This document shows, one piece after another, positions 1,499-17,162 of a DNA stretch of 64,000 nt. Source of the DNA: Flammeovirgaceae bacterium SG7u.111 (GTDB lineage: Bacteria; Bacteroidota; Bacteroidia; Cytophagales; Flammeovirgaceae); assembly GCA_034044135.1 (NCBI GenBank), contig CP139021.1, positions 6,300,001 to 6,364,000 on the forward strand. Reading direction: 5' to 3'. Position 1 is the first letter of the stretch. Each line of letters begins with the position of its first letter. The position numbers were made by a program, and so were the translations under genes. The notes beneath the pieces are model-generated. The model was not told where the DNA came from. It made no database searches and saw nothing but the letters and a program-made list of their open reading frames with translations.

Positions 1499-4024
1499 TT
1501 ACTCTAATTCAAAACGCTTTTCTTGCTTGTTGGGCAGTTCTATAGTGCGGATAAACACCTCACTAGAAGTTGGCTGCAACCATACAGATTCTGTACTATT
1601 TTGAAGGGCTTCGTGGCTCTCTACTTTCTTCAATTCTTTGCCATTGAGCTTCACACTTTGCAAGAACTTCTCGGTCACTACTTGCAGCTCTAGCTGGCGA
1701 CTTTCATTTTTTTCTTCGCCCATTCCCTCAGCAGCATGAACCATTAGGGATATTTTTTCACCTGTTATTTGCTGCTCAATTTTGGTAGTGGAAAATGCCC
1801 CGTCTTGGTAGCTCACATCCCAGCCATTGTCTTCGTAAAGGGTAAAGCTTGTCGCCTTTATTGATGGAAATATTTTAACTATCAGGTCATTGCGGGTAGT
1901 ACCATCGGTTCTTCTACCGTGAGCATTCATAGTTTTGGCATCTACATAAGCCAATGGAATAATGGCTCCTTCGCGTACATAAATGGGCAACTTGAACATA
2001 CCGGCACGATAGAGTGCCACATCTTTTTTGAGCTCGCCACGGCTATTGAGCTTTTCGTGGTTGTGCCAATCATACCAAGTACCTTCAGGCAAATACACAT
2101 CTCTTGTTTTGCGATCGTATTCTGTTTCTGCCACACCCATAAGGTAAGCTCCTATCATTTTTTGGTCGAAAATATCAGCTACGCTAGAGTCTGCTTGAAA
2201 ATAGCACACCAAGGGAGCGATTACCGGATCGGCTTCTTGTGCCGCTTTGAAAGCCAAGGAATAATAATAGGGCATCATGGCATATCGCTGGCGGGCATTT
2301 GACAAATTGCTGGCAAAATCCCCTACTCTATCGGGTGCTGTCTCAAAATTATTCTTGAGGTTTTGAGCATGAGGCCTTACGGGCACATCGAACAGCATGG
2401 CATAAGCAAACCATTTGGTGTAGAGTTCGTCATAAGGTTTTCCCTCGTCGTTGATATGTCTATGAAAACCACCCAAATCTGCCCCATAATAATCTATACC
2501 CGAAAAGGACATGTTGGTTTGGTTCATGGCATGGGCAGTGAGGCTGATCATTTTGGTGCCAATATCAGCAGACCACATAGCTGAGCCATAGCGCTGGATA
2601 CCCGAGATGCCCGAACGAGACATAATGAACGGACGCTGGCTTATGCCGTTACGCTTGTAGCCATCAAAAATACTTTTTATCCAAAGGATATTGTAAATAT
2701 TATGAGCCTCTTTTTGGGTTTTTCCTCCCATGTAAATTGCGTCGGCATTGTACACTTCTGGCTCACCTAAATCTGTCCAGTGACCAAGCACGCCATCTTC
2801 TATCAATGCTTTTCTGCGATGGTCAAATACGTATTTCCCAGTTTCAGGATTGATATAATCAAACATTCCACCACTGCCCCACCACGATTGCTCGGGAAAA
2901 AGCATAGCTGAACTTTCATCTGTGCTCGCAACCAATAATCCTTTGGATTTAAACTCTTGATAGTCTGGCAGTTTCTGGTCTACATAAGGCTCTTCTATGA
3001 GCATAACCCCGACCCCGTAATCTTTTTCTAGCTGTGAAAGCTTGCCTTTAGGATCTGGATAGGTTTCGGTATCCCAGGTTAGGCTGCCCATATGTGAGTC
3101 GTCGCCCTCGTTGCCTATTCCCCCAAACCACTGCAAATCCATCACAAAGCCATCGAGGGGAAACTCGTTCTTTTTAAGGGAAACAAGCTTGCTGTCTAGC
3201 TCATCCCAATCGTCAAACCCGTATTCAGACACCCACATTCCAAACATCTTTTTGGGAGGAATGGTTGGGTGACCAGTCAACTCTAAATAATCTTTACGAA
3301 GATCGAGCAAGTCTTCTCCAGACATGAAATAATAGCTTGTGTTTCCTCCAGAATGATCTACTTTCCAAGTATCCTCTGCAGTAAAATCCCAAACATGTTT
3401 GAAAGTATTGTCGAGAAAAATAGCGTAGTTTTCATGCCCTGCACCGTTCATGGCGTACATAACAGGAAACTGCGAGTTGCCATTGCAGCCACCATCCCAC
3501 CAAGCCATTACATTTCCGAACTCATTGCCTTCCCTCACTTTTCCATTGTAAGAAAGCTGACTGTAGCCCTCATTGGTAAACTGCTGGCCCAAACCATACA
3601 CCTTAAGGTCAGCTGGGCAAGTGGCTACTAAGCCTTGCAGCCCCTCTTTCCTACTTGGAGAAATGGAGGTTAATTCTACCCAGCTTTTAGTCTTATCAAT
3701 AAAAGAAACTTCAAACGTTTCTGAGTTTATGATCAGTTTCAGGTCATTTGTTTCGATAATATCCTTTTCTCCTTTCTTGTAAAAGGAAACTGTTTTTGCT
3801 CCCTTATAGTCGGTTTTGGCAACCATGACAGAAGCGTTTTGTGGCAAGGTAAAGCTATCTCCATAGTGATATTGTACATTTACCAAATCGTCGTCCAGCA
3901 GTTCAATGTAAAGATGGGTATCTGCATTGGAAAAATTGAAGACTTTACTGGGTGTTTCTTCCCCACCTCTTTTGCAGGAAGCCAAACAGAAAATGGCCAC
4001 TGCAAAGAATAGTATTTTTTTCAT
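1499..4024 (-). CDS. GH31 alpha-glucosidase, lipoprotein
   Basis: This 841-residue lipoprotein has a signal peptide ending in the lipobox LASC, which makes Cys17 the lipid anchor. It would hydrolyse alpha-glucosidic bonds of maltooligosaccharides to glucose in the periplasm or on the cell surface. Visible features are an N-terminal beta-rich galactose-mutarotase-like region, a TIM barrel with the nucleophile motif GHWTDLGEPE near residue 416 and the acid/base motif MWSADIG near 484, and a C-terminal DUF5110-type beta domain around FTLYEDNGWDV near 725. Family members normally place these two aspartates about 65 residues apart, as here. There is no strongly acidic export signal after the cysteine, so a periplasmic location is more likely. 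It is the last gene of the starch operon, 47 bases after the amylase. Specificity among alpha-glucosidase, alpha-xylosidase and related GH31 activities is inferred from context. Confidence 0.88.
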   Translation of the reverse strand: MKKILFFAVAIFCLASCKRGGEETPSKVFNFSNADTHLYIELLDDDLVNVQYHYGDSFTLPQNASVMVAKTDYKGAKTVSFYKKGEKDIIETNDLKLIINSETFEVSFIDKTKSWVELTSISPSRKEGLQGLVATCPADLKVYGLGQQFTNEGYSQLSYNGKVREGNEFGNVMAWWDGGCNGNSQFPVMYAMNGAGHENYAIFLDNTFKHVWDFTAEDTWKVDHSGGNTSYYFMSGEDLLDLRKDYLELTGHPTIPPKKMFGMWVSEYGFDDWDELDSKLVSLKKNEFPLDGFVMDLQWFGGIGNEGDDSHMGSLTWDTETYPDPKGKLSQLEKDYGVGVMLIEEPYVDQKLPDYQEFKSKGLLVASTDESSAMLFPEQSWWGSGGMFDYINPETGKYVFDHRRKALIEDGVLGHWTDLGEPEVYNADAIYMGGKTQKEAHNIYNILWIKSIFDGYKRNGISQRPFIMSRSGISGIQRYGSAMWSADIGTKMISLTAHAMNQTNMSFSGIDYYGADLGGFHRHINDEGKPYDELYTKWFAYAMLFDVPVRPHAQNLKNNFETAPDRVGDFASNLSNARQRYAMMPYYYSLAFKAAQEADPVIAPLVCYFQADSSVADIFDQKMIGAYLMGVAETEYDRKTRDVYLPEGTWYDWHNHEKLNSRGELKKDVALYRAGMFKLPIYVREGAIIPLAYVDAKTMNAHGRRTDGTTRNDLIVKIFPSIKATSFTLYEDNGWDVSYQDGAFSTTKIEQQITGEKISLMVHAAEGMGEEKNESRQLELQVVTEKFLQSVKLNGKELKKVESHEALQNSTESVWLQPTSSEVFIRTIELPNKQEKRFELE

Positions 4025-4071: not shown

Positions 4072-7000
4072 TTATTGCTTCAAGACTTTCTTTGAAATAG
4101 TCGATTTGCTGTTGTGAATATTGATAAGGTATAGCCCGCTAGCTAAGTCTGACATATCTATTTTCAGTTCCTTTGCCCCTGGTTGCAGGTAAATTGTTTG
4201 AATATTTTCCCCTTTGAGGTCTGTCAGTTTTACGTATAAGACTTTTGCAGATTCATCGAGGACCAATAGATAAGTAATGTTTGTTACAGGATTAGGATAT
4301 ACTATAAAAGCCTTGCTTAGCTCTTCTTTGCTCAAGGCGAGTGGCTCTTCGGTAGTAATGGTCTCAGAGTACTCCGAATCTTTGAAACTTCCTTTTGCTT
4401 TTACTCGGTAATAAAACTGTCCAAATTTCACCGCTGCATCGGTATAGGTTTGTGCATTTATTTGCAAATCGGCAATTTGCTCAAACGTAGCCCCTTCATC
4501 GGCCGAACGCTCCACCACGTATCCTACTTCCGAGTTGGAATTGTCCATCCAGTTGAGATCAACACCTGTAGGCGAAGTAGGAGCGGCTTTTAGCTCCGTT
4601 GGCTTGGCTAAACTCAGCTTGAAGGGAACAGGGTTTCCTTCTACAGCAGTAGCCAGTTTTTTGTTGGTAAAGATATGAAACTCCCCTGGGGCAAGTGTCA
4701 CTGTTTCTTCCAAGTCGGTTACTTCAAGCGAGTCTCCTGAGAAATAATCATACCATTTCCCCGTACTGATAAACTGAGGATTCACCACCGACTTTCCAGT
4801 ACCAAAATTGGCTACAACACTCATTTTTAGGGATTCGTGTTCCAAGTTTATCCACTTGGTATTTCCAGAAGGATCCCAAGTAAATGTCCCATTGTTGAAA
4901 GCTTCTGCCTGCGATTTTTTGAGGTGGATAAGGCTGCGGTACGTATCAAACAACTTCCTTTTTTGAGGGTCGTCGAGGTACTCCCATTTAAGTGGTTTCA
5001 CACCGGTTCTTCCATTATAATCAATGGAAATATCGTATCCGTATTCGCCAAACTGCCAGATCATTTTCGGCCCTGGAATGGTAAAAAAGAAGCTTGCCGC
5101 TAATTTCATCCGATCTAGTGCCGTAGCCGTGTCCCGTACATTATAATCTCCCGAAGAATTTCCATAGTTCAATGCTTCGTACATTTGGCGCTCTTCATCG
5201 TGGCTTTCCATGTAGCTCACCAAGTTCAGGTCATCCCAACCTCTTTCTTTGGCATAACCCCATTTCAAATCTGCACTTTTACCCAAAATCACATCTTTGT
5301 AGTTGAAATGCATATTTCCCCACAGCATCATCCCATAATCTGCCAATTCCTTTTCCTCGTCGTTGTCGGCCAAATGCTCTAAAATAACCAAAGCATCAGC
5401 TTTTTGAGCCCAAACCACATCTGCCAAACGCTTCAAGTTTCTCACCCGGTCGGCATCGTATTTCCCTCCCCATTCGTCGTCAGCAATAGTTTTAGGATTG
5501 TTGGAAAAACCTTTAGTAAAATCGAGACGGTAGCCATCGAAATGAAATTCTCTCAGCCAATACACCAAAATGCTGTCCATAAGACCTTTGGTACTGGCAC
5601 TTTCGTGGTTGAAATCCGAGCCCCATTGCAAGCCTGTATTTTCAAAATTAGATTGCTCATTGTACCAAGGGCTGTTTGCCGCAGGTCGGTTTTCCTTAGC
5701 ATTCCAATACAACTTTGCCCAAGGCGAAGAGTTGTACGAATGATTCAGTACCATATCCATCAGCACCAACATGTCCCGTTTGTGGCATTCGTCTATCAGC
5801 ATTTTGAGTGCTTCGCGAGGACCGTAATATTTGTCGGCAGCGAAGCAAAAATTAGGATTATAGCCCCAGCTGAGGTTTCCCTCAAACTCGTTCACGGGCA
5901 TTAGCTCAATCGCATTTACCCCCAAACTGTCCAAATAATCCAACCTATCTATAACGGACAGGTAACTATGTCCTTTGTCAAAATCTCGGATAAGTAATTC
6001 GTAAATCACCAAATCGCTGTTGGCAGGCTTGGTAAATCCGTCGTGCTTCCACTCAAACTCGTCCTGCCCCGTTCTCAATACCGAAGCTCTAAATTGGGTT
6101 TTTCCTTCTGGGTACTTCACCAAGCCAGAATAAGTCTCTTCGGTAATGTATTTGTCTTCCCACGGATCGCTTACCTGCTCAGTAAAAGGATCGGCAATTC
6201 TCAATTCTTCATCTACCAAAAACTGGAACACGTAGTCTTTCCCAGCAACCAACCCGTCTATTTCCAACCAAAAAAACTTATCGTCTTTTTTCATAGAATA
6301 GGCTGGCGAAGGCGTCCAATCGTTGAAATCGCCAATGGCATACACGGAAGATTTGCCCGGAGCTTCCAAGACCAAAACCGCTTTCGAATCATCCGTTGCG
6401 TTGTAATTCACCCCAGGTTTTACACCTGCGGGCAACGGAGCTTCGTCCACATCAGCTCGGGTAATGTAACTGAAAGTCACCGTATCGGCTTCTTCACCTG
6501 CTGTAGCTATAATGGCAATATCGTTTTTCCCTTCAGATGTTACGCTTTCTTGGTATGAATATTCGTTGGAAGGAGTAACCGTTGTTTCTACCAAACTTTG
6601 GTTTCGGTACAATGAAAAAACGGCATCTTTAGAGCTCGCTGCAGAAATGGAAATTTGCTCGTTTAGATCAACAAATAGCAATTGGGAAAGAGGAGTTAAT
6701 AGATTCAGCTCCAGCTTATCCGACGTATAAAGATCTACAAAAATATCTGACCCGTTGGGGTCTTTTCCCTCGGCACAATTGTTACTTGCCCCATCAAAAC
6801 CTCCACAAGGTCCCTCTTCCCGAAACACCATGCTCAAGCGGTATACCGTAGCATCGGCAGGCAAGCCCGCTGCGGCAAAATAGGTACGAGGGGTAATAAT
6901 AATCTGCCATTTCTCATCGCCAAGAGAAGTCATTTTCCCCGAAGAATTTGGGTTGCCCCATTCGCCTACTACATGTTCCCATTCCAATCCGTTTTCTTCC

Positions 7001-7182
7001 AAAATCACACCTGCGTGCATCATCACTCCTGTAGCCCCTTCCAGTCCCGAAGCACCTTGGGTGGCATCGTAGGTAATGGTGATTTGCTCGTCGGAAGAGG
7101 GAAATAATGGGGAGACAGTTACTTGTCCCCAAGCAGTGTTTAGGGTAAGAATTGTCAGTATGAAAAGTAAAATCCGTTTCAT
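4072..7182 (-). CDS. Secreted GH13 alpha-amylase with type IX sorting domain
   Basis: This 1036-residue enzyme would cut starch or related alpha-glucans outside the cell. In order it has a signal peptide (MKRILLFILTILTLNTAWGQ), an N-terminal beta domain, a CBM48-like module with GDFNDWTPS near residue 280, and a GH13 catalytic barrel. The four conserved GH13 regions are intact: DMVLNHS (about 476), YRLDFTKGF with the nucleophile (about 553), VILEHLADN with the acid/base (about 600) and MESHDEER (about 660). A fibronectin-III-like domain follows (about 860-935), then a type-A type IX C-terminal domain opening FIVYPNPVTN and ending SKKVLKQ. The frame runs open to 7305, but the ATG at 7182 starts the signal peptide. 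Unlike Bacteroides SusG it is not a lipoprotein and should leave the cell through the type IX system. Pullulanase or neopullulanase activity is possible. Confidence 0.9.
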   Translation of the reverse strand: MKRILLFILTILTLNTAWGQVTVSPLFPSSDEQITITYDATQGASGLEGATGVMMHAGVILEENGLEWEHVVGEWGNPNSSGKMTSLGDEKWQIIITPRTYFAAAGLPADATVYRLSMVFREEGPCGGFDGASNNCAEGKDPNGSDIFVDLYTSDKLELNLLTPLSQLLFVDLNEQISISAASSKDAVFSLYRNQSLVETTVTPSNEYSYQESVTSEGKNDIAIIATAGEEADTVTFSYITRADVDEAPLPAGVKPGVNYNATDDSKAVLVLEAPGKSSVYAIGDFNDWTPSPAYSMKKDDKFFWLEIDGLVAGKDYVFQFLVDEELRIADPFTEQVSDPWEDKYITEETYSGLVKYPEGKTQFRASVLRTGQDEFEWKHDGFTKPANSDLVIYELLIRDFDKGHSYLSVIDRLDYLDSLGVNAIELMPVNEFEGNLSWGYNPNFCFAADKYYGPREALKMLIDECHKRDMLVLMDMVLNHSYNSSPWAKLYWNAKENRPAANSPWYNEQSNFENTGLQWGSDFNHESASTKGLMDSILVYWLREFHFDGYRLDFTKGFSNNPKTIADDEWGGKYDADRVRNLKRLADVVWAQKADALVILEHLADNDEEKELADYGMMLWGNMHFNYKDVILGKSADLKWGYAKERGWDDLNLVSYMESHDEERQMYEALNYGNSSGDYNVRDTATALDRMKLAASFFFTIPGPKMIWQFGEYGYDISIDYNGRTGVKPLKWEYLDDPQKRKLFDTYRSLIHLKKSQAEAFNNGTFTWDPSGNTKWINLEHESLKMSVVANFGTGKSVVNPQFISTGKWYDYFSGDSLEVTDLEETVTLAPGEFHIFTNKKLATAVEGNPVPFKLSLAKPTELKAAPTSPTGVDLNWMDNSNSEVGYVVERSADEGATFEQIADLQINAQTYTDAAVKFGQFYYRVKAKGSFKDSEYSETITTEEPLALSKEELSKAFIVYPNPVTNITYLLVLDESAKVLYVKLTDLKGENIQTIYLQPGAKELKIDMSDLASGLYLINIHNSKSTISKKVLKQ

Positions 7183-7277
7183 ATAATGATGGTTTGGAAA
7201 TAAAAAAGCTTGTTGTCTGTCGTGAAATCTATGGGGAAGTATAGCTAGGAAACCCTGTTCCATTGAAGTTAAGAAAG

Positions 7278-7300
7278 GGCACGAGCGAGACGCTCGCGCC
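7278..7300 (-). repeat. GC-rich hairpin between the SusE/F-like gene and the amylase
   Basis: Arms GGCACGAGCG (7278-7287) and CGCTCGCGCC (7291-7300) enclose AGA. Read on the transcribed minus strand the ten-base stem pairs fully, with one G-U pair. It stands out from the AT-rich surroundings and lies in the only long gap (158 bases) inside the starch operon, about 95 bases before the amylase start. No T tract follows, so it is not a standard terminator. It may be a copy of a dispersed palindromic repeat or an mRNA-processing hairpin. Confidence 0.5.
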
Positions 7301-7340
7301 AGCATTTCTAACTAACCTCTAATTTTCTAGCACCCAGCCT

Positions 7341-8930
7341 CTAGAAAGGGCAATAGCCTTCCCAAGTTTGTACCGTTCCTGTGAACGAATTGGTGCCGTC
7401 GTAGGTAAACAAACGGTTCTCCACCCCTTCGCAACCCGTATTGTCTCCATTAGGCTTTTGCTCTCCATTACCCCAAGCTGGGGCATCTGTAGTCGCTAAG
7501 AAAAATTTAAACTCTACTGATTGCCCATTGGTCATTGGAAGATAAATTTCGTAGGTAGTACCTCCTGTATTATTCATTTTCAGACCTGCCGCTTGACCAG
7601 GCTGCACCCAGTATACTACACCCAAATCACCAGTGATATAAATATCTTTATCCGTAGGAGTATCGACAGGAACATCCACGGTGAATTTCACCAAATCTTT
7701 GCCATCTGCCACACAAAAGCCTTCCCAAGTCACTACTGCACCTTCTACGGTTTGGTCAGAAAAATCACCACTGTTAAATGTAAATTTTCTGTTGTCTATT
7801 CCTTGGCATCCAGCATCATTAAACGTTTGCTCGCCACCTCCCCAGCTTGTTCCGCCATCAGGTACAAGGAAATATTTATATTCAATACCAATTCCGTCTT
7901 TGTCAGGAGTTATTATAAATGTTTTCTGGTAAACCCCGTCTTTCAATTCAAGCTTCAAAGCTTGGTTTGAACCAGGCTCTTGCCAATTACCATCAGCAAT
8001 GCCCAAGTCACCTAATGAACCTGCCAAAAATACGCCGTAACCGGCAGGAACCTCGGCAAATTGACTAAGCTTGAAGGTAAGTGCAATACCTGCTCCGTAA
8101 CGATAAAGGTCAAGATTAAAAGGCTCTTCTGCCATTTTTACTACACCTTCTGCATCCGTAGCTTTAGCCTCTACTGTCCAGATAATGGAGGCTTTGCCTT
8201 TTTCTTCAATTCCTAAATCTTTCAGAGCATCTTCTAACTGTTGGTGTGTAAGGGTAAGAGTGGTATCCTGCCCACTGTTGTCAGAAGAAAAAGAAAGAAT
8301 TGGCTCGGCAAAATCGCCACCTATGTTATCAGCTTTCCATGTGTATGTAATACCTGAACCTAGCCCCGCCTTGCTCGCTTCCCACTTTATAACGATATCT
8401 TCGTCTGCACTCGATTCCAATAAGTATAATGGTGTGTTATTTGTTGGCGTCATAAGATTAAAATCCGCCAATGTTTCGCGGTAGCGCACGATAGTAACTG
8501 GTGAAGGACCTGATATTTTAGTTATTTCACCGTTACTTGCCCTTACTCCCCAGTCCAAAGATGCTTCACCACCTTCAGCAACACCCAAATTTTTGAGTGC
8601 TTCTTGCAATTGTGCATGTGTAAAGGTGATTTGCGTTGCTGTATTATCATTGTCGGAAGGAAGTTCCAGTACAGGAGCTTCCAAATCGCCACCTTCTGTA
8701 ACCGCTAACCAAGTATAGCTTACAGGAGAATCAAAACCTGAACGGGCTTGGTTCCATTGAACAACTATTGGTTCGTCTGGGGTCAAAGGGTTCAATTCTA
8801 CCCTTCCCGTTGGCACTTCTATGAGGGAAAAATCCCTCAAACTTTCTAGCCCTGAGCCTACAAACTGCTCTTGGTCACACGACGAAATGAGACCTGCTAG
8901 AACAAATAAGAATATGATATATTTTTTCAT
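7341..8930 (-). CDS. SusE/SusF-like starch-binding outer-membrane lipoprotein
   Basis: A 529-residue lipoprotein with signal peptide and lipobox ISSC. Two tandem Ig-like SusE modules come first; each carries a VSYTW/ITYTW core and a THAQLQEAL/THQQLEDAL segment. Two C-terminal modules follow; the first carries FLAGSLG...GNWQ and the second ITGDLG...YWVQ. They end alike, in WGGGEQTFND/WGNGEQKPNG and then AVVTWEGFC/TVQTWEGYC. The tandem modules resemble SusE/SusF starch-binding domains, which hold starch or maltooligosaccharide at the cell surface and deliver it to SusC/SusD. The residues after the cysteine (DQEQ) are partly acidic, compatible with surface display. The frame opens with a TTG at 8936, but I chose the ATG at 8930. 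Binding specificity is inferred from the linked amylase. Confidence 0.85.
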   Translation of the reverse strand: MKKYIIFLFVLAGLISSCDQEQFVGSGLESLRDFSLIEVPTGRVELNPLTPDEPIVVQWNQARSGFDSPVSYTWLAVTEGGDLEAPVLELPSDNDNTATQITFTHAQLQEALKNLGVAEGGEASLDWGVRASNGEITKISGPSPVTIVRYRETLADFNLMTPTNNTPLYLLESSADEDIVIKWEASKAGLGSGITYTWKADNIGGDFAEPILSFSSDNSGQDTTLTLTHQQLEDALKDLGIEEKGKASIIWTVEAKATDAEGVVKMAEEPFNLDLYRYGAGIALTFKLSQFAEVPAGYGVFLAGSLGDLGIADGNWQEPGSNQALKLELKDGVYQKTFIITPDKDGIGIEYKYFLVPDGGTSWGGGEQTFNDAGCQGIDNRKFTFNSGDFSDQTVEGAVVTWEGFCVADGKDLVKFTVDVPVDTPTDKDIYITGDLGVVYWVQPGQAAGLKMNNTGGTTYEIYLPMTNGQSVEFKFFLATTDAPAWGNGEQKPNGDNTGCEGVENRLFTYDGTNSFTGTVQTWEGYCPF

Positions 8931-8959
8931 TTTCAAAAAGGTCTTTTTGTTGAGAAATC

Positions 8960-9784
8960 TTAAAAGTCGCCTGTTACAGCATCGGCTTTGATAGGCGAGA
9001 AGAGCTTATCGCCCAAGCTTGCTGGGGGCTCTGGTCCTCCAAAGTCTGGATTAGGTCCACTTCTTACATGAATTTTTATCGATTCAATTTCTTGACCTTC
9101 ATCCAACTCATAAAAATCGAAAGGTACCATGGTTAAGGTAAAAATCCCGTCGCCCTCATTTGTGAACATTTGCTCTGGAGTATTACCAACTTCATCCCAA
9201 GGTACCAACTGAATCTCTGTACCATCAGTAAGTTTGATATCTGTGTACATGTACACTTCAGTAAGCGCAGCCAAAGTGCTATTCACATCTTTGTGGTTCT
9301 GGTCGAAGTAGAAAGTAACCACATCCGATTGCTCAAACTTATCGGGGAAAGCTCTCAAAGGAACGGGTACAAACTCTAGTGCAACTACATCTACCGACAT
9401 ATCGCTAGTCTGTCCATCACTCCAGTCTCTTCCTTTAAAAAGGAAACCTAAAGTCAATAACTCACCTGGCGTTTTGTTAAAGAATGCAGTTGGCACAAAA
9501 GTAAAAGTGAATACATTTTCAGTAGCCGTTGGCAGCAAACGAGCAGCTTCTTGGTCTGGTCCTGCTGGGTTCACATTAGTTGGCGCATCACAGCATCCGT
9601 CTACAAACATCCAGATATAAATATTGCCAGTATATTTTGAAGCTTCAAGGTCTGTGCCCGTAAAATCGACGGTCATGGTAACTTGGTCTTCCGCTGTAAA
9701 CTCAGCCGGATCGTAGGTGACAGTTTGGGCTGAGGCAACTCCTGCCAAAAGCAGCCCTATGATAAATAATATATATATTTTCAT
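8960..9784 (-). CDS. Secreted beta-rich protein of the starch locus
   Basis: A 274-residue protein with an ordinary signal peptide (MKIYILFIIGLLLAGVASAQ) and no lipid cysteine. It seems to contain two related beta domains, opening VTYDPAEFTAEDQVTMTVDF and FPDKFEQSDVVTFYFDQ, the first with a paired-cysteine DGCCDAP motif. The opening of the first domain resembles the N-terminal domain of the amylase in the same operon (VTVSPLFPSSDEQITITYD), so the two may share a module used for glucan binding or surface docking. I do not recognise a named family. It lies 35 bases after the DUF5004 gene and 29 before the SusE/F-like gene, so it is co-transcribed with starch genes. A glycan-binding role is inference from position only. 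Confidence 0.7.
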   Translation of the reverse strand: MKIYILFIIGLLLAGVASAQTVTYDPAEFTAEDQVTMTVDFTGTDLEASKYTGNIYIWMFVDGCCDAPTNVNPAGPDQEAARLLPTATENVFTFTFVPTAFFNKTPGELLTLGFLFKGRDWSDGQTSDMSVDVVALEFVPVPLRAFPDKFEQSDVVTFYFDQNHKDVNSTLAALTEVYMYTDIKLTDGTEIQLVPWDEVGNTPEQMFTNEGDGIFTLTMVPFDFYELDEGQEIESIKIHVRSGPNPDFGGPEPPASLGDKLFSPIKADAVTGDF

Positions 9785-9819: not shown

Positions 9820-10359
9820 TTATTCCCCTGCAGATTGTACCAACGTATAATTATAAGTCAAGAATTTTTGCCAGCTAACCTTACCATTTTCTTCTTTTTT
9901 AAAATATTTAGAAAACTGGAAAGCGATGGTAGGTACCTCAGTTTCTGTAAGCCCATTTAGACCTTGGATATCCAAAGTAGTTTTGGTATTTCCATCTTCG
10001 CTAGTAAAAATGATTTGGCTAGGATAGCCCGCATCGTCAAATGCCCAAGTTCCTTTGGTCATGCCTATGATGTTCGGCGCAGAGCCAAGATTTACCTCAA
10101 AAGAGCCATCCGCTTTTAGGTCGATATTAAAGTCCCCAAACGGAAGCTTTTGGGTAATATCCACCGACTGCACAAAGGCAGGGTATCCTTTTTCTACGGC
10201 AATGTCATCTACCTGCACCACACGGGTCACATTCCAATTGCCTACCATTTGCGTGGGGCGGTCGAATGGTTCGCCCACACCGCCAAATTCTTCTATACAA
10301 CCACTCAAGCCCGCTAAAAGCAAAATGAGTAGTAGTTGGATTTTATTTATGTTCTTCAT
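9820..10359 (-). CDS. DUF5004 / lipocalin-like lipoprotein
   Basis: A 179-residue lipoprotein with lipobox LSGC followed by the acidic IEEF, consistent with outer-membrane placement. The mature part looks like a small beta-barrel of lipocalin type: MVGNWNVTRVVQVDD at the start, a central GSFEVNLGSAPNIIG and a KGTWAFDD strand, as in DUF5004 proteins often found in SusC/D loci. The function of the family is not known. A ligand-binding role for sugar capture or complex stability is a guess from context. Two start codons are possible, TTG at 10365 and ATG at 10359; I use the ATG. It sits 54 bases after susD. Confidence 0.75.
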   Translation of the reverse strand: MKNINKIQLLLILLLAGLSGCIEEFGGVGEPFDRPTQMVGNWNVTRVVQVDDIAVEKGYPAFVQSVDITQKLPFGDFNIDLKADGSFEVNLGSAPNIIGMTKGTWAFDDAGYPSQIIFTSEDGNTKTTLDIQGLNGLTETEVPTIAFQFSKYFKKEENGKVSWQKFLTYNYTLVQSAGE

Positions 10360-10413
10360 TTTCAATGTCTTTATCTTTTTATGACTTAAAAAATCGAGTA
10401 AAAAGGAGCTGGA

Positions 10414-11826
10414 CTAGCAGCCTCCTTCTTCGTTTGGAGTGAAAAACTCTGTACCGCCAGCACCTGCTATCTCTATATCAGGAAACTGAACTGACATGCC
10501 TGGGCAGCTCCAAGGAGATCCGTTAATGGTGATATTTTCACCTTTTGCTCCTATGCGCCTTAAGTCGTGGAACCGAACACCTTCCGCTACCAACTCTTTG
10601 CGCTTTTCATCTCTAATTCGGCTAATAAGCGTTGCTTGACCAATAGGTCCTTCTATTTCACTCAAACCTGCACGCATGCGGATATCGTTGAGATCGGCAA
10701 GTCCTTCATCCAACATATTCAACTCTGCAGCAGCTTCTGCTCTCACCATTTTTAATTCCGTTACGTGGAGTAGAGGAACATCAAAATAGTTTTTCCCATC
10801 AAATTTCTTCACAGAAATCTTCTCGTTCTCAAGACCTTCATCTTCTACCACATACCAGTTTTGACCTCTCAAGTCTGCAGGGTCAGCTGTAGCTTTTTCA
10901 TAAAGCTCACGAGCGATTCTCAATGTAGGAGGGTTATCGCCATCAGAACGGAAATGTGCAGTAAATTGCTCTCCACGATGATCGTTGGCATTACTTACCA
11001 TCTTAAAAATAGCTTCCTCAGTTCCTGTAGTCGAATAACGATCGATCAATTCACTTGCATTTGGATTGAATTTATTAGGACCATTTTCGATCACATCATT
11101 CGCCAAATCATAGGTGCTTTGGTAATCATGCATGTGGAAATATACCTTTGAAAGCAAAGCTTTTGCAGCCCATTGGTTAGCATAAATACTATTTTCTGTA
11201 GGTAATTTAGCGGCTGCGGCTGCTAGGTCTGCCGTAATTTGGGCATACACTTCAGCTACTGTGTTTCTATCTTTTGCAACAGATTCTGGAGTTGTTCTCA
11301 ATACAACACCCAAATGGCTATTATCAGCAGTGTAGCCATATGGTTGGGCAAATAGCCTTACCAAATCAAAATAGCACAACGCCCTTAAGAATTTTGCTTC
11401 ACCTTCTATCCTATCTCTTTCAGTATCTGACAAGCCTTCAAGCTCTAGATTTTGTAGCAAAACATTTGCTCTATAAATCAAGAAATGTGGCTCTGTGAAA
11501 TATGCTTGTGTGTATCCTGTAAAAATAGAAGTTGACTTATTATAGTAAGCCAAGAAATCAGCGTTATCAAGACTTCCTGGCTTTCCATCTATGTTGTCGC
11601 CCATTACCTCTGCAATTGCTTGAGTACGACCACCCATAAAATCACCACCTGAACCTCTAAGCACATCGTAGGTTGCATTGAGTAGCTCCTGTAAATCCTG
11701 AGGAGTATTGATTGCTTCTTCTGCAATGATTTCATCACCTGGCTCTAGCTCTAACAAGCTATCGCAAGCTTGTCCGCTCAACATTGCCAGAATGAGAAGT
11801 ATATATTTAAGATGTTTCATTTTCAT
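10414..11826 (-). CDS. susD: SusD-like starch-binding lipoprotein
   Basis: A 470-residue RagB/SusD family lipoprotein; its signal peptide ends GQAC with Cys21 as anchor and DSLLELEPGDE after it. The N-terminal SusD-like region (NTPQDLQELLNATYDVLRG) forms the TPR-like helices, and the C-terminal RagB/SusD region includes TELKMVRAEAAAEL and LNDIRMRAGL. SusD proteins cap the SusC barrel as a lid, capture oligosaccharide and pass it into the channel. The gene lies 22 bases downstream of susC. Assignment to starch comes from the linked GH13, GH31 and starch-binding genes. The length is slightly below that of Bacteroides SusD (about 550), so some surface loops are probably short. Confidence 0.93.
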   Translation of the reverse strand: MKMKHLKYILLILAMLSGQACDSLLELEPGDEIIAEEAINTPQDLQELLNATYDVLRGSGGDFMGGRTQAIAEVMGDNIDGKPGSLDNADFLAYYNKSTSIFTGYTQAYFTEPHFLIYRANVLLQNLELEGLSDTERDRIEGEAKFLRALCYFDLVRLFAQPYGYTADNSHLGVVLRTTPESVAKDRNTVAEVYAQITADLAAAAAKLPTENSIYANQWAAKALLSKVYFHMHDYQSTYDLANDVIENGPNKFNPNASELIDRYSTTGTEEAIFKMVSNANDHRGEQFTAHFRSDGDNPPTLRIARELYEKATADPADLRGQNWYVVEDEGLENEKISVKKFDGKNYFDVPLLHVTELKMVRAEAAAELNMLDEGLADLNDIRMRAGLSEIEGPIGQATLISRIRDEKRKELVAEGVRFHDLRRIGAKGENITINGSPWSCPGMSVQFPDIEIAGAGGTEFFTPNEEGGC

Positions 11827-11848: not shown

Positions 11849-14800
11849 TTAGAATTTAAGATTTACTCCAACAGAGACTGCTCTTTCTTGAGGCGGTGTT
11901 AGGTAGGTGATATTTGGGCTCAAGTTTCTCCCTTGAGGGCCACTATGATCTCTAACAATCTCTGGGTCTGGACCAGGGTATTTTGTGAAAGTAAGCAAAT
12001 TGGTACCTGTCACATATACTCTAGCGTTTTGGACAATCTTAGATTTGGTTGGGATGTTGTAACCCAATGTAAGCGTACGTAATCTCAAATAGGACGCATC
12101 GTACAAGAACTGGGTAGTGTTCAAGTTCCAGAAACTTGGCAGACCTCCGTAAGTTGTTGGATCTTGTGTAAGCCTTGGGAAAGATGCCTGATCACCTGGT
12201 TGTCTCCAACGGTCTACGATATCCCTACGCATATTCCAGTCAGAAACAACACCTAACTGACGCTTGGCCGCATCATCATAAATATTACCTCCAATTGTGA
12301 AAGTGAATAAGATATTCAAATCGAAGTTTTTGTAGGCAAAGTTGTTGGTAATACCACCTGTAGCATCTGGCACTACACTTCCTACTGGTACTCTATCGTC
12401 GAGGTTAAACTCATACGTTTCGTTTCCTTCTTTGTCCAAAAAAACAGGCAAACCATTCGCTGGATCTACATAAGAGAACCTGTTCAAAAAGTTTACACCT
12501 ACTGGCAAGCCTTCTACTACACGTGTATCACCTGAACCAGCAATTGCATCTGGAGGAGTTGCTCCAATATCAATTACTTCGTTTTGAAGTCGAGAAATGT
12601 TCAAATCTGTAGTCCACTGAAATTCACCTACTAGGTTACGAGACTTGATAGTAAGTTCTAATCCTCGATTGCTAATAACACCTATGTTTTCGAAGTAGCG
12701 CTCAAAACCTGTTGATGCTTGAACTAATCTATCGATAAGCACATCTGAAGAACGTTTGTCGAAATAAGCGAATTCAGTAGTAATTCTGTTTTCTAATAAA
12801 CCTAGTTCAAACCCTACGTCAACGGTACGTTGTACCTCCCATTGCAAATCGTCATTTTTCAACCTAACTGGGTATAAAATTGGTTGTTGATTGTAAGGGT
12901 TACCATCGTCACCAGCTTGGCGTCTAAATGTTCCGAAACGTTGGTAGTTAGGAATATCTGCATTACCAGTGATACCCCAGCTAGCTTTCAGCTTCAAGAA
13001 GTTCACTGCACTGCCTTCTGGGAAGAAGTCTTCCTCTGAAATCACATAACCAAGACCTGCGCTTGGGAAGAAACCGTAACGGTTGTTTTTACCAAACCTA
13101 GATGAACCATCCACCCTTGCAGATGCCTTCACAATGAATTTATCTTTATGGTTCCAGTTCACACGACCAAAGTAACTTAAGAAAGACCACTCTTGGTCTG
13201 CAGCAGTTGAGATCACTGGATTGGGCAATGGCTCGCCCTCTTCATCAAATCTTGGAGGAATAGTTGGGTCTTCATAAAGTGGACCTGTTACATTATATGC
13301 GGTAATACTGTTGTATTTTTCAGTGATTGAGTACTGATACTCTGAACCTACTAAGAATACAAATTTGTTATCGTCATTCAGGTTTAGGTCGTATGATACA
13401 GTTGCAGATGTGCTGTAATTAGTTACCCATGTCGGATACCTAGATGCTTTGCTTTCCGCATTTGTCCACTCTGCTGGCTCAAACTGGTCATCTTGGATAT
13501 CCATGTAATCCAAGTTACCAGCTACCCTAACCTTTAGGTTTTTGATAGGCTCATAATCTAAAGAAAGAGAAGATATAGATCTATTTTCACGAACTTTCCA
13601 ATCGTTGAGTTCCTGTTGCCTTACAGGGTTACTCCCTCCTGTAAAATAAGTTCCATCATCGTTGCGAACGGGGTAAATAGGCAATGCATCAGAAGTTGCA
13701 GCACCCAAACCGCCAGACCATGCAGCAAATACCCTATTGTTTATACCTTGGCTAAGTGTAGATGAAAGGCTTGCCTTTAGGTTATTTAGAATCTTATAAT
13801 CTAGGTTTAACCTACCACTTATTCTTTCATAGTTGTTGCCAACCAAAAAACTTTGGTTATTACTATAAGAAAGACCTATATAAGTTGTGAGCTTATCATT
13901 ACCTTGGCGCATAGAAAGATTATATTCTTGTTTTACCCCCGTTTGGGTAGTTAGGTCTTGCCAATCTGTATCTGTATTTTGAGCATCTTCCCAAGAAACA
14001 CCACCATATAAAGGTGCTCTTCCAGTTTTTCCATCATTTTCCCAGGCTTCTTGGTAAAGCTGCAACCATTCAGAACTACTTAATAAATCAAGCTTACGAG
14101 CTGGTTCAGATACTCCAAATTTTGCTGAAAAATCAAAAGAAGGTTTTCCTTCTTGCCCTCTTTTGGTTGTAACCAACACAACTCCATTAGCACCTCTTGA
14201 ACCGTAAATAGCTGCTGCAGAAGCATCTTTTAAGATTTCAATAGACTCGATGTCATTGGGGTTGATAGTTGCCAAAGGGTTGTTGTTCATTGCGCCACGA
14301 TCACCGTTGATAAACGGGTCTTGTGTGATAGGAATACCATCTACGACGTAAAGAGGGTCGCCACCTGCACTAAGTGAAGCAATACCACGAACACGGATCA
14401 TAGATCCAGAGCCTGCCATACCGCTACCTTGGATTACCTGAACACCAGCAGCTTGCCCTTGCAGAGCAGCTTCAAAACTGGGAACAGATACATTAAGGAG
14501 TTTTTCCCCTTCTACCTTGGCAATAGAGCCAGTTACTTCCCGTTTGGTTTGTGTACCGTAACCTACTACGATTACCTCTTCTAGTTGCCTAAGGTCAGGC
14601 TCAAGTGCTACTTCAAAAATAGATTTACCACCAATTTCAAGCTCTTGGGAAACATATCCCACATAGCTTATTACTAAAATCCCGTCGGTAGGGGCTACCA
14701 ACTTAAATTTTCCATCGATGTCTGTGATAGTACCTTTACCAGTACCTTTTAATAAAATACTTACACCGGGGATTCCAGCCCCGGTCTCATCATAAACTGT

Positions 14801-14902
14801 TCCTGATACGGAATGATCTTGTGCGTGCGCCAGCGACATGTTAAAGAACAGGCACAAAAGCCAGCACAGCATACTCTTCGACGTGTAGTCTTTCATCATC
14901 AT
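11849..14902 (-). CDS. susC: SusC-like TonB-dependent maltooligosaccharide transporter
   Basis: A 1017-residue SusC/RagA outer-membrane transporter. After the signal peptide (ending SLAHAQ) comes a carboxypeptidase-D-like domain (SVSGTVYDETGAGIPGVSI), a TonB-box region EEVIVVGYGTQ, a plug with IESIEILKDASAAAIYGSRG and GVVLVTTK, and a 22-strand barrel ending in the aromatic-terminal strand AVSVGVNLKF. It would import maltooligosaccharides across the outer membrane using TonB energy. It heads the leftward starch operon. The frame begins with TTG at 14908, but three ATG codons follow at once and I use the first, at 14902. Expression probably depends on the divergent regulator at 15333. Confidence 0.94.
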   Translation of the reverse strand: MMMKDYTSKSMLCWLLCLFFNMSLAHAQDHSVSGTVYDETGAGIPGVSILLKGTGKGTITDIDGKFKLVAPTDGILVISYVGYVSQELEIGGKSIFEVALEPDLRQLEEVIVVGYGTQTKREVTGSIAKVEGEKLLNVSVPSFEAALQGQAAGVQVIQGSGMAGSGSMIRVRGIASLSAGGDPLYVVDGIPITQDPFINGDRGAMNNNPLATINPNDIESIEILKDASAAAIYGSRGANGVVLVTTKRGQEGKPSFDFSAKFGVSEPARKLDLLSSSEWLQLYQEAWENDGKTGRAPLYGGVSWEDAQNTDTDWQDLTTQTGVKQEYNLSMRQGNDKLTTYIGLSYSNNQSFLVGNNYERISGRLNLDYKILNNLKASLSSTLSQGINNRVFAAWSGGLGAATSDALPIYPVRNDDGTYFTGGSNPVRQQELNDWKVRENRSISSLSLDYEPIKNLKVRVAGNLDYMDIQDDQFEPAEWTNAESKASRYPTWVTNYSTSATVSYDLNLNDDNKFVFLVGSEYQYSITEKYNSITAYNVTGPLYEDPTIPPRFDEEGEPLPNPVISTAADQEWSFLSYFGRVNWNHKDKFIVKASARVDGSSRFGKNNRYGFFPSAGLGYVISEEDFFPEGSAVNFLKLKASWGITGNADIPNYQRFGTFRRQAGDDGNPYNQQPILYPVRLKNDDLQWEVQRTVDVGFELGLLENRITTEFAYFDKRSSDVLIDRLVQASTGFERYFENIGVISNRGLELTIKSRNLVGEFQWTTDLNISRLQNEVIDIGATPPDAIAGSGDTRVVEGLPVGVNFLNRFSYVDPANGLPVFLDKEGNETYEFNLDDRVPVGSVVPDATGGITNNFAYKNFDLNILFTFTIGGNIYDDAAKRQLGVVSDWNMRRDIVDRWRQPGDQASFPRLTQDPTTYGGLPSFWNLNTTQFLYDASYLRLRTLTLGYNIPTKSKIVQNARVYVTGTNLLTFTKYPGPDPEIVRDHSGPQGRNLSPNITYLTPPQERAVSVGVNLKF

Positions 14903-15055
14903 ATTCAATATTAGTTTTAAAAGTTAAGCACAAGTGCTTTATAGAGTTTCACCAATACCTCTGCAGGTATTTTTTAGGGATGAAGCGCACACCATGAAAT
15001 GCGCGACCAAATTGGATCACTAAAACTGTGGGATAAATAAGAAGGGAAAACTAGG

Positions 15056-15069: not shown

Positions 15070-15175
15070 TATTTCAAGAATAAAAAATAGTAGAACTTCA
15101 TTTTCATATCTTATTCTGATTCGTGCAGTTTTATTTCACTAATTGACTCTACAATGATATGGCAGAATAAAAAAG

Positions 15176-15195
15176 CAATCGTTCCGCGTTCGGAA
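15176..15195. promoter_or_regulatory. Operator-like motif and small palindrome
   Basis: The minus strand reads CGCGGAACGATTG over 15176-15188, a second copy of the GGAACG(A/T)TT core. It overlaps a perfect inverted repeat TTCCG-CGTT-CGGAA at 15182-15195. It sits about 140 bases upstream of the regulator start. Confidence 0.35.
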
Positions 15196-15226: not shown

Positions 15227-15332
15227 AATCATAATTTGCACCTTTTAAAACATTGGCTATCAAACTATTGTTATTTCTGGAAAAAGTGGGTTATAATTGA
15301 AAAAAATAATCCAATTACCAAGAACGGCACTT

Positions 15333-17162
15333 ATGAAAATGAATAATATTCTATTATCGGCCATACTTACACTACTTTGTTGTTCTCCTATCAGCCAAGT
15401 TTTGGCTCAAGTAACCATTATAGTGGAGGCTGTGCCCGAAAATACCCCAGAAGGGGCTAATATTTTTGTAGCTGGGACTTTCAATGACTGGAATCCTTTG
15501 GACTCATCCTACATGCTTACCAAAACGGCGGAAGGGACTTTTGAACTTACTTTAGATATAGATGCTTATTCTTTTGAGTATAAATTTACCCGAGGAGGCT
15601 GGGATGCCGTAGAGGCAAATGAAGATGGAGACTTGATGGGAAACCGTATCATAATCAGGAATGACGACCCCATAAGAAGAGTACGCATAGCTGGCTGGAG
15701 AGATCTGGTTATCAATACCGTTCCTCATTCACGGTTTGTCATCAGAGAACTTCCTGAGAATACACCCCAAGGCAGCGAAATTTATATGGGAGGGAGTTTC
15801 AATGATTGGACAGCCAAAGATCCTAATTACAAGCTCACCAAAGATATTGATGGCTTTTACCACATTTATATCCCTGCAAGTATCGATTCATTTGAGTATA
15901 AATTTAACAGAGGAAGCTGGGCTTCGGTTGAGGCAAAAAAAAGTGGAAAACTGAGAACAAACCGCTATTTCCAACGGAATTCAGATGAAAATATCACTGT
16001 AAACATCGATATTGAAAACTGGGAGGATTTATCGAAAGGCTTGCCGAGGAACTACATTCTCTTCATGCTTTTTTCCGTGTTTTTCAATGGTTTTCTGATT
16101 CTTTCTGTATTCGGCATTCGCTACAAGCAAGGTCCAGCCAAACTATTGCTAATCCTCCTAATCTCCATCAGTCTAATAGGCTTGCTATCACGCGTTTTTT
16201 TTACCGAGCTGAAGGAGGCTCATGAGGCGCTCCCTAAGCTACACCTCGGCTCAGATTATATTCTTTTCCTTTTTGCCCCAGTTTTTTACCTTTTGGTCAG
16301 AAGCCTGATCCAAGAAATAAAACCAGGGCAATTTGAGGGTATGTTTTGGCGACATTTCCTCCCCTTTACCCTACAAATCATTATCTACCTCCCACTTTGG
16401 TTTACCAATATAGAAGACTTTAAGCTTCACCTTGTTAATAAGGATTATAATTTACTTTTTTATAGTGTAGGCGCAGTTGCATTTGTTTATAACCTTGCTT
16501 ATTGGGTCGCTATTTTCCGAATAATCAATAAGTTTAAAAAGCTAAACCCAAGCAAATGGCATTATAATTCTCTTTTTTCTACCTTAAAATTCATTCAAGG
16601 ACTTGTATTATTATTTTGGGCTTATACCATAATCATGTACCTCATAGGGCAGGCGACTGGCGAAAATCTAGAACCGTATGTAGAGCAGGGTATTGAAGGT
16701 ACTTGGAGTATTTTTGCCCTTAATGTTTATGCTATTGCTTATTTCCTCGTCACCCGAAGGGGGATTTTTAACGAGAAGAAAGAAATGGAAAAAGAGCAAA
16801 AGATTTATAGCAGCAAAATTGCTGATGAGGAGCTGGCTAGGTATAAGGACAAATTAGACAAAGCGATGGAGGAAAAGCAACTTTACCTCAACCCACAACT
16901 CACACTTACCGACCTTGCCAAAGAGCTAGGCATGTCTACACATACATTATCTAAAGCCATAAATGAAGGGTACGACAAAAACTTTAATGACTTTGTAAAT
17001 AGCTATAGGGTCGAAGAATTCAACAGGCTTTCGATAACAGTTAAAGATGGTTCGGAAAACATTCTATCGCTCGCATATAAAGTTGGTTTCAATTCTAAAA
17101 CAGCTTTTAATCGTGCATATAAAAAAGTGACGGGTTCTACGCCTAGCGAAGCTTTACGATGA
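15333..17162 (+). CDS. Membrane AraC-type regulator with two starch-binding modules
   Basis: A 609-residue protein with an unusual architecture. A signal peptide (ending QVLAQ) is followed by two tandem beta modules of the CBM48/CBM20-like type. The first has FVAGTFNDWNP and FEYKFTRGGWDAVEAN; the second has YMGGSFNDWTAK and FEYKFNRGSWASVEAK. Both lie before residue 240. Seven hydrophobic helices then span about 240-485, and an AraC HTH domain occupies about 510-608 (LTDLAKELGMSTHTLSKAIN ... AYKVGFNSKTAFNRAYKK). The signal peptide plus seven helices puts the modules in the periplasm and the HTH domain in the cytoplasm. I infer that it binds maltooligosaccharide directly and activates the divergent starch operon. 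The frame starts at a TTG at 15297, but the ATG at 15333 begins the signal peptide. SusR is the functional analogue in Bacteroides but is built differently. Confidence 0.85.
   Translation: MKMNNILLSAILTLLCCSPISQVLAQVTIIVEAVPENTPEGANIFVAGTFNDWNPLDSSYMLTKTAEGTFELTLDIDAYSFEYKFTRGGWDAVEANEDGDLMGNRIIIRNDDPIRRVRIAGWRDLVINTVPHSRFVIRELPENTPQGSEIYMGGSFNDWTAKDPNYKLTKDIDGFYHIYIPASIDSFEYKFNRGSWASVEAKKSGKLRTNRYFQRNSDENITVNIDIENWEDLSKGLPRNYILFMLFSVFFNGFLILSVFGIRYKQGPAKLLLILLISISLIGLLSRVFFTELKEAHEALPKLHLGSDYILFLFAPVFYLLVRSLIQEIKPGQFEGMFWRHFLPFTLQIIIYLPLWFTNIEDFKLHLVNKDYNLLFYSVGAVAFVYNLAYWVAIFRIINKFKKLNPSKWHYNSLFSTLKFIQGLVLLFWAYTIIMYLIGQATGENLEPYVEQGIEGTWSIFALNVYAIAYFLVTRRGIFNEKKEMEKEQKIYSSKIADEELARYKDKLDKAMEEKQLYLNPQLTLTDLAKELGMSTHTLSKAINEGYDKNFNDFVNSYRVEEFNRLSITVKDGSENILSLAYKVGFNSKTAFNRAYKKVTGSTPSEALR

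Follow-up and report, generated by a model that had tools for sequence, protein, structure and literature searches.

A putative one-component starch sensor of Bacteroidota that combines starch-binding modules, seven transmembrane helices and an AraC-type DNA-binding domain

Regulators that join membrane helices to an AraC-type DNA-binding domain are known from Saccharophagus degradans, a Gammaproteobacterium. Membrane-bound AraC one-component regulators with 2 or 6–7 transmembrane (TM) helices were proposed there in 2008; several adjoin polysaccharide-degradation genes, and they were hypothesized to detect polysaccharide outside the cell (PMC2386152). Here, we describe a predicted starch sensor from the Bacteroidota that resembles these regulators in its AraC-type helix-turn-helix (HTH), its several TM helices, the absence of a kinase and its polysaccharide-degradation neighbours. 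The S. degradans regulators however stand in a cellulase and xylanase context, and the part of that paper considered here mentions neither a starch-binding module nor an operator (PMC2386152).

Maltose in the periplasm is the ligand of the SusR family, which activates the sus operon, and the likeness of our sensor to it rests on the GH13 neighbourhood and the operator. In the part of the source considered, the DNA-binding domain of SusR is described as not resembling those of other known factors to a significant degree, and direct repeats spaced by 67 or 77 bp are predicted as its sites (PMC3878776). Unlike SusR, the sensor has an AraC domain, seven TM helices and CBM20/48-like modules, and its family has one conserved element; because of its AraC-type HTH_18 domain, set against the published description of SusR, we reject SusR membership. 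HTCS regulators are described as having a periplasmic sensor and an AraC-type output and as often lying beside SusC/D genes (PMC3878776). The sensor shares all three features, but it is excluded from the HTCS by having neither kinase nor receiver domains in Pfam. RsgI anti-sigma-I factors likewise carry a CBM outside the cell membrane; according to the part of the source considered, they differ in having one transmembrane helix, in inhibiting a sigma factor, in autoproteolysis and in being known from cellulosome producers (PMC10575876).

The sensor gene lies at 15333..17162 on the + strand of the window, by which we mean the whole stretch of 64,000 nucleotides of Flammeovirgaceae bacterium SG7u.111 that was analysed. 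From the enclosing open reading frame (15297–17162, +) and the family alignments, we place the start at the ATG at 15333, which gives a product of 609 amino acids beginning MKMNNILLSAILTLLCCSPISQVLAQ. All features of the protein follow in + orientation. A Sec-type signal peptide recognized by eye (residues 1–26, 15333..15410; helix 2–23 in the model) precedes starch-binding module 1 (residues 27–126, 15411..15710; assigned by Pfam, conservation and fold, with W53, K84, W90 and N104) and module 2 (residues 132–236, 15726..16040; assigned by conservation and fold). Seven transmembrane helices, predicted to form a GPCR-like bundle (residues 240–474, 16050..16754), are followed by modelled cytoplasmic linker helices (residues 481–515, 16773..16877), of low confidence in their first part, and by an AraC-type DNA-binding domain, HTH_18, supported by Pfam and by model helices 525–608 (16905..17156). 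Pfam places HTH_18 at residues 528–608 with 56.1 bits, above the cut-off, and AMPK1_CBM at residues 40–86 with 27.3 bits, barely above the cut-off of 26.8; for module 2 there is no separate Pfam match.

The AlphaFold2 model of the full-length sensor, built from an alignment of 59 members (58 relatives and the window protein), has a mean pLDDT of 90.2. It contains two beta modules at about 26–126 and 132–236, long helices at 240–261, 267–292, 301–326, 339–357, 373–404, 409–442 and 447–474, and a helical DNA-binding domain at the C-terminus (525–608), while residues 471–500, which lead from the seventh membrane helix to the AraC domain, have a pLDDT of about 54–72. The domain arrangement is not a product of chance, because it is found again at 26–38% identity across the family. 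The signal peptide and the seven helices together would place the modules outside the inner membrane and the AraC domain inside. The distribution of charges agrees only moderately with this predicted topology: lysines plus arginines number 3, 3 and 4 in the predicted inner loops of the sensor vs 3, 2 and 0 in the outer ones, and the inner count exceeds the outer in 41 of the 59 members. Plain hydropathy finds seven helices in 38 of 81 members, six in 33, five in 9 and four in 1. Pfam finds no histidine kinase or receiver domain in the sensor or in the family members, and therefore no phosphorelay is expected. The architecture that the preliminary description had read from this DNA, with a signal peptide, two modules, seven helices and an AraC HTH, is thus borne out by Pfam, AlphaFold2 and alignments, as is its claim that the protein dispenses with a phosphorelay, and its placing of modules in the periplasm and HTH in the cytoplasm finds moderate agreement in the positive-inside count.

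The modules had also been proposed to be starch-binding, and as far as fold is concerned structure prediction and domain search of this region support the proposal. Modelled separately (pLDDT 93.9), each module superposes on starch-binding domains, with best matches at Z 9.0–9.5 over 86–92 residues and 2.5–2.7 Å. These include the CBM20 of cyclodextrin glucanotransferase (CGTase; Z 9.5, 88 residues, 2.5 Å) and STBD1 (Z 9.4), and the CBM41 of pullulanase (Z 7.6) and the AMPK glycogen-binding domain 1z0n (Z 7.4) follow at lower scores. All of the 50 structural matches listed are alpha-glucan binders (CGTase, amylase, beta-amylase, glucoamylase, STBD1, CBM41, AMPK and the like), among which we presume 4rkk to belong. 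For the module pair, Foldseek returns the CBM26 pair of an amylase on top (E 7e-6) and then mostly starch enzymes, besides a SpaA pilin, an S-layer protein and a DUF3823 protein (E 1e-4 to 6e-4); TM-scores for the two-module query are low, at 0.20–0.37. In a comparison of module 1 with PDB chain sequences, AMPK beta subunits come first, at an E of 0.11 only; in that alignment both tryptophans and the YKF stretch coincide, and the asparagine is without alignment support. We take the Trp/Lys/Trp/Asn set to be the ligand-contact residues at the AMPK and CGTase sites. AMPK1_CBM is matched at E ≤ 0.01 in just 14 of the 59 members, and module 1 is missing or broken in about a dozen of them. In module 2, W159, R193, G194 and E200 are present in all 59, K190 in 58, N210 in 57 and W196 in 56, so that on these alignments module 2 is the constant part of the family. 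As modelled, the beta-sandwich of both modules is of the starch-binding domain type (CBM20/CBM48 group).

Divergent from the sensor gene, on the – strand, runs the starch operon announced in the preliminary description, all members of which Pfam identifies. Its first gene encodes a SusC-like TonB-dependent porin (11849..14908), followed by a SusD-like lipoprotein (10414..11826), a DUF5004 protein (9820..10365), a DUF4961 protein (8960..9784), a SusE-like protein with a CBM20 starch-binding domain (7341..8936), a GH13 alpha-amylase-family enzyme with a T9SS sorting tail (4072..7305) and a GH31 alpha-glucosidase-like enzyme (1499..4024). The GH13 and GH31 enzymes and the CBM20-bearing SusE point to an alpha-glucan.

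Is this arrangement peculiar to the window? Full-length relatives at 26–38% identity occur, among the matches listed, in Spirosoma, Dyadobacter, Runella, Emticicia, Flectobacillus, Fibrisoma, Chryseolinea, Hymenobacter, Flammeovirga, Cellulophaga, Poritiphilus, Daejeonella and Saprospiraceae MAGs. Across 392 genomes sampled evenly from the phylum, with three candidates scored per genome, 41 match the whole-protein model at E ≤ 1e-60. Only 5 of these matches, counting that of the window's genome, extend over at least one module; the others are confined to the 7TM-AraC part. These module-less 7TM-AraC proteins, widespread in the phylum, have a homologous 7TM part (hhalign 99.9%, E 3e-35) and the same AraC-type HTH, and differ from the sensor in having no periplasmic modules. 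A tree of the 7TM-AraC part, with 79 rows that have modules and 48 that have none, requires 3 changes vs 38.7 in shuffles, and on this tree the module-bearing type may have a single origin.

The genomic neighbourhood sets the two types apart. After de-duplication by identical C-terminal 120 residues (89 to 81 sensors, with broken open reading frames such as that of L143 left out), a GH13 gene lies within 8 kb of 58 of the 81 sensors and of none of 49 module-less homologous 7TM-AraC genes (Fisher 4e-18). The corresponding counts are 42 vs 7 for SusC (Fisher 1e-5), 34 vs 4 for SusD (2e-5) and 25 vs 0 for SusE/F (2e-6), in a comparison whose controls were largely drawn from genomes different from those of the sensors and whose two sets are both phylogenetically non-independent. 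Some of the 23 sensors that have no GH13 gene within 8 kb have short flanks. In an earlier set of 74 sensor genes, selected by a stricter 7TM criterion and missing one paralogue group, 50 of the 51 nearest GH13-labelled genes match the Pfam alpha-amylase model at 1e-5, and 13 of the 51 have cyclomaltodextrinase domains and 7 a SusG tail. About twenty loci show by eye a frequent gene order of sensor, SusC, SusD and SusE/F, often followed by GH13, on one strand. The suggestion that the protein may define a class therefore holds in that the family is real and linked to starch genes, and a survey of SusC/D loci, done from the sensor side, finds that both domain order and starch neighbourhood recur. 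Directly upstream of the sensor, L047:3091-9111 encodes a GH13 protein that is secreted, is about 2000 amino acids long and, by eye, has two amylase-like stretches; it has equivalents in L048, L049 and L053–L055, six relatives in all. At another locus, from a Dyadobacter MAG (L090), a gene for 1350 amino acids lies on the other strand 214 bp upstream of the sensor; its product matches AraC and LytTR/receiver models and is perhaps a hybrid two-component regulator.

Starch-type modules are not confined to starch loci: they are also found next to LytS/LytTR pairs and, by eye, in esterase-like proteins. At L069–L077 (e.g. L070:7644-10723 and L074:9131-11550), secreted or lipoprotein-like proteins with about three or more such modules adjoin a LytS-type histidine kinase and a LytTR response regulator. 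Such neighbours are seen in 6 of 11 module-only rows and by eye at 3 more loci, with Pfam applied to L070 only. Judged from gene order, it is possible that the multi-module protein, the LytS kinase and the LytTR regulator form a three-part system with the same sensor module. The window's own genome further contains, at 4.23 Mb and 2.65 Mb of C1, two genes (L081:4032-6449 and L082:4019-5785) with AraC domains 42–43% identical to that of the sensor; by eye, both products have a TolB-like stretch and TPR-like repeats, and only that of L081 has a nucleotide-cyclase-like domain.

The regions between sensor and susC share 9-mers in 16 of 23 cases, the window included, vs 9–10 in five approximate shuffles that do not allow for the relatedness of these partly related regions. 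The shared 9-mers resolve into AAAGTGG(G/A)(A/G)CGAC, an element (AAAGTGGRRCGAC) that precedes TAnnTTTG by 31–32 bp start to start. TAnnTTTG we take to be the Bacteroidota –7 box; if so, the element would span about –42 to –30, a position that would suit an activator replacing the –33 element. Neither a second box nor direct-repeat half-sites are conserved upstream of the operator. The element is found in 18 of the 22 training regions outside the window, and in leave-one-out scans of whole loci the true site comes out on top in all 18, at 19.1–38.2 bits vs 7.4–17.2 for the runner-up, although these are not 18 independent tests because several loci are congeners.

Outside the training set, a site of at least 18 bits is present in 13 of 62 sensor loci vs 1 of 46 controls (1.51 Mb and 0.82 Mb scanned, respectively); 49 of the 62 have no site of 18 bits. 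Each of the 13 lies upstream of SusC, GH13 or a gene preceding SusC, with Hymenobacter and Cellulophaga included, and in L109, L114 and L115 the site is several kb away from the sensor. Two more sensor-locus matches above 18 bits (L105, 18.5; L116, 20.9) are not upstream of any listed gene, and the sole control match (L165) is situated immediately upstream of a 7TM-AraC gene that the tree places, with a long branch, among the module-bearing ones. A strict form of the pattern has 12 matches, in 12 of 292 genomes of the order, and its reversed control 1. Eleven of the 12 stand directly behind a sensor gene, 10 of them with SusC next, and the twelfth falls within an unrelated gene, NusG-like by eye; 7 of the 11 are outside the training set but may belong to genera already in it. 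By genome, 11 of the 41 that encode a full-length sensor (46 with a match minus 5 whose sole match is a module-only protein) have the strict pattern vs 1 of the 251 that do not (Fisher 1.3e-9), and 30 of the 41 sensor-bearing genomes are without the strict form. At class level, there are 2 matches in 395 genomes, one a known site and one beside another AraC-type gene. The latter (L228, G468:C465:3123-3160) is flanked on one side by this gene, whose AraC domain is a related one, and on the other by a gene that is alcohol-dehydrogenase-like by eye, which suggests that the HTH subfamily shares the DNA motif. Behind the sensor in L100, L104, L107, L097 and L102 are hairpins with the operator-like letters GTGCCA...TGGCAC, some followed by T runs, which are probably terminators.

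In the window itself, a tentative operator AACGCGGAACGATTG lies upstream of susC (15176..15190, –), 143 bp upstream of the sensor start, and agrees with the element at 10 of 13 core positions. A tentative –7 box TATCATTG (15152..15159, –), with one mismatch to TAnnTTTG, follows at exactly 31 bp start to start. This candidate is only the fifth best composite site in 64 kb and is therefore not significant alone; that rank rules out a direct proof of the operator from the window sequence. By arithmetic from the 64-kb list, about 0.03 matches of such a score are expected in the intergenic region, and we therefore keep the site as tentative. The window-family sensors of L047–L068 have no convincing site upstream of the sensor and GH13, with weak matches of 2–3 mismatches in L053, L063 and L065, the last of another family. 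Taken together, the conserved operator-promoter element strengthens the activator reading for the family, with the window site only tentative.

What kind of transducer is the membrane bundle? Against GPCRs of several classes, the model reaches Z 16.3–17.4 over 220–258 residues in the 50 matches listed (3.4–4.8 Å, 6–12% identity; best 235 residues at 3.7 Å), with an aligner that calls for caution below about Z 13 for helical bundles and for which 14 is a typical best among five helical models. In this whole-model comparison only GPCRs are among the 50 matches listed, since one domain fills the list, and it is uninformative that microbial rhodopsins are not among them. Because the PDB is rich in GPCRs and the model is a predicted one, we read this as a resemblance that does not imply relationship. 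7TMR-DISM receptors likewise combine an outside module, seven helices and a varied inside output, but they have no detectable profile similarity to the sensor: Pfam matches neither 7TMR-DISM_7TM nor DISMED1/2 in the sensor or family, and against 30 DISM 7TM sequences hhalign gives a probability of 2.7%, so that membership of this group is rejected. The window does encode a 7TMR-DISM histidine kinase (DISMED2, 7TM, HisKA, HATPase; 42856-44967, –), 26 kb from the sensor.

We consider it probable that the sensor unites a transmembrane receptor and a transcription activator for starch use in one component. Malto-oligosaccharide imported by SusC/D would be bound by the two periplasmic modules, binding would alter the seven-helix bundle, and as a result the AraC domain in the cytoplasm would be moved or change its dimer state. 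This domain would then bind a site of the conserved type over the –33 region and bring RNA polymerase to the SusCD/GH13 operon next to it, the target within the window presumably being the divergent susC operon. Against this model stand the low rank of the window site and the weak matches near other sensors of its family, the many sensor genomes and loci that have no strict or 18-bit site, the 23 sensors that have no GH13 gene within 8 kb, a GH53 gene in one sensor cluster and the presence of the modules outside starch loci. The signal could instead arise from protein contact, as in ECF/anti-sigma systems, if the modules, rather than binding free oligosaccharide, attach to a partner protein of the periplasm or outer membrane (SusC/SusD, an amylase) or have polymer bound at all times. 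That such modules are also separate secreted proteins beside LytS-type kinases and LytTR regulators suggests protein assemblies, but module 2 conserves the presumed ligand residues almost without exception, and the modules fold like glucan-binding domains, which makes partner docking unlikely. Regulated proteolysis, in which ligand binding leads to cleavage and a soluble AraC fragment is freed, would find a place in the flexible, lower-confidence stretch before the AraC domain. However, this stretch varies widely in length and sequence among members, the family alignment shows no conserved cleavage site by eye, and seven conserved helices are too many for a mere tether, and we regard such a release as very unlikely.

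Two further readings concern the operator and the ligand. The conserved operator may belong to another activator, with the sensor only modulating it or acting on its own gene; the one occurrence of the pattern beside a different AraC-type gene fits this. With 11 of the 12 order-level matches at the sensor–susC junction, and with the exception also adjoining a gene with a related AraC domain, there is little reason to expect a separate activator. The ligand, where the main doubt about the proposed mechanism lies, may be a different glycan in many members, so that the term starch sensor would be too narrow. At L099:12000-13121, a GH53 gene (galactanase family) stands between sensor and SusC behind the operator site, and genes of the same size in the same place are seen in L105, L108, L110 and L116; the ligand may therefore not be starch in every member, and galactan is one candidate. 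Yet GH13 is in the same cluster in L099, L105, L110 and L116, and in the window GH13, GH31 and the CBM20 SusE all speak for alpha-glucan, which leaves a broader ligand range rather unlikely, if a point to bear in mind.

The preliminary description contrasted the protein with known regulators more sharply than is warranted, as multi-TM AraC regulators (PMC2386152) and CBM-bearing anti-sigma factors (PMC10575876) precede it, at least in the parts of these papers considered. We therefore see the sensor as a variation on a known kind of regulator. A CBM-7TM-AraC protein was not found described among the matches listed in the open-licence PMC literature, the scope of the search, and the parts considered of PMC1592074, PMC1183210 and PMC11046441 hold nothing on such proteins. 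What appears to be new here, within the known multi-TM AraC regulators, is the CBM-7TM-AraC combination, and a candidate operator accompanies it. A wider reading, which we hold to be conceivable though somewhat doubtful, is that of a receptor like a family-C-style GPCR without a G protein, in which a glucan-binding head and a GPCR-fold transducer would act on a transcription factor inside; its module-less relatives would then be a phylum-wide class in Bacteroidota with swappable outside sensors and an operator readable from the genome.

In conclusion, starch is a substrate for many Bacteroidota other than the gut genera, and to our knowledge little work has been done on how they sense it. In the sensor family a single gene would suffice, and sensor, ligand, operator and promoter geometry are all predicted. 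If the proposed mechanism is true, it is a compact starch sensor without a phosphorelay, useful as a tool. The module-less 7TM-AraC homologues, which are far more numerous, are likewise probable membrane receptors, and the same approach may lead to their operators.
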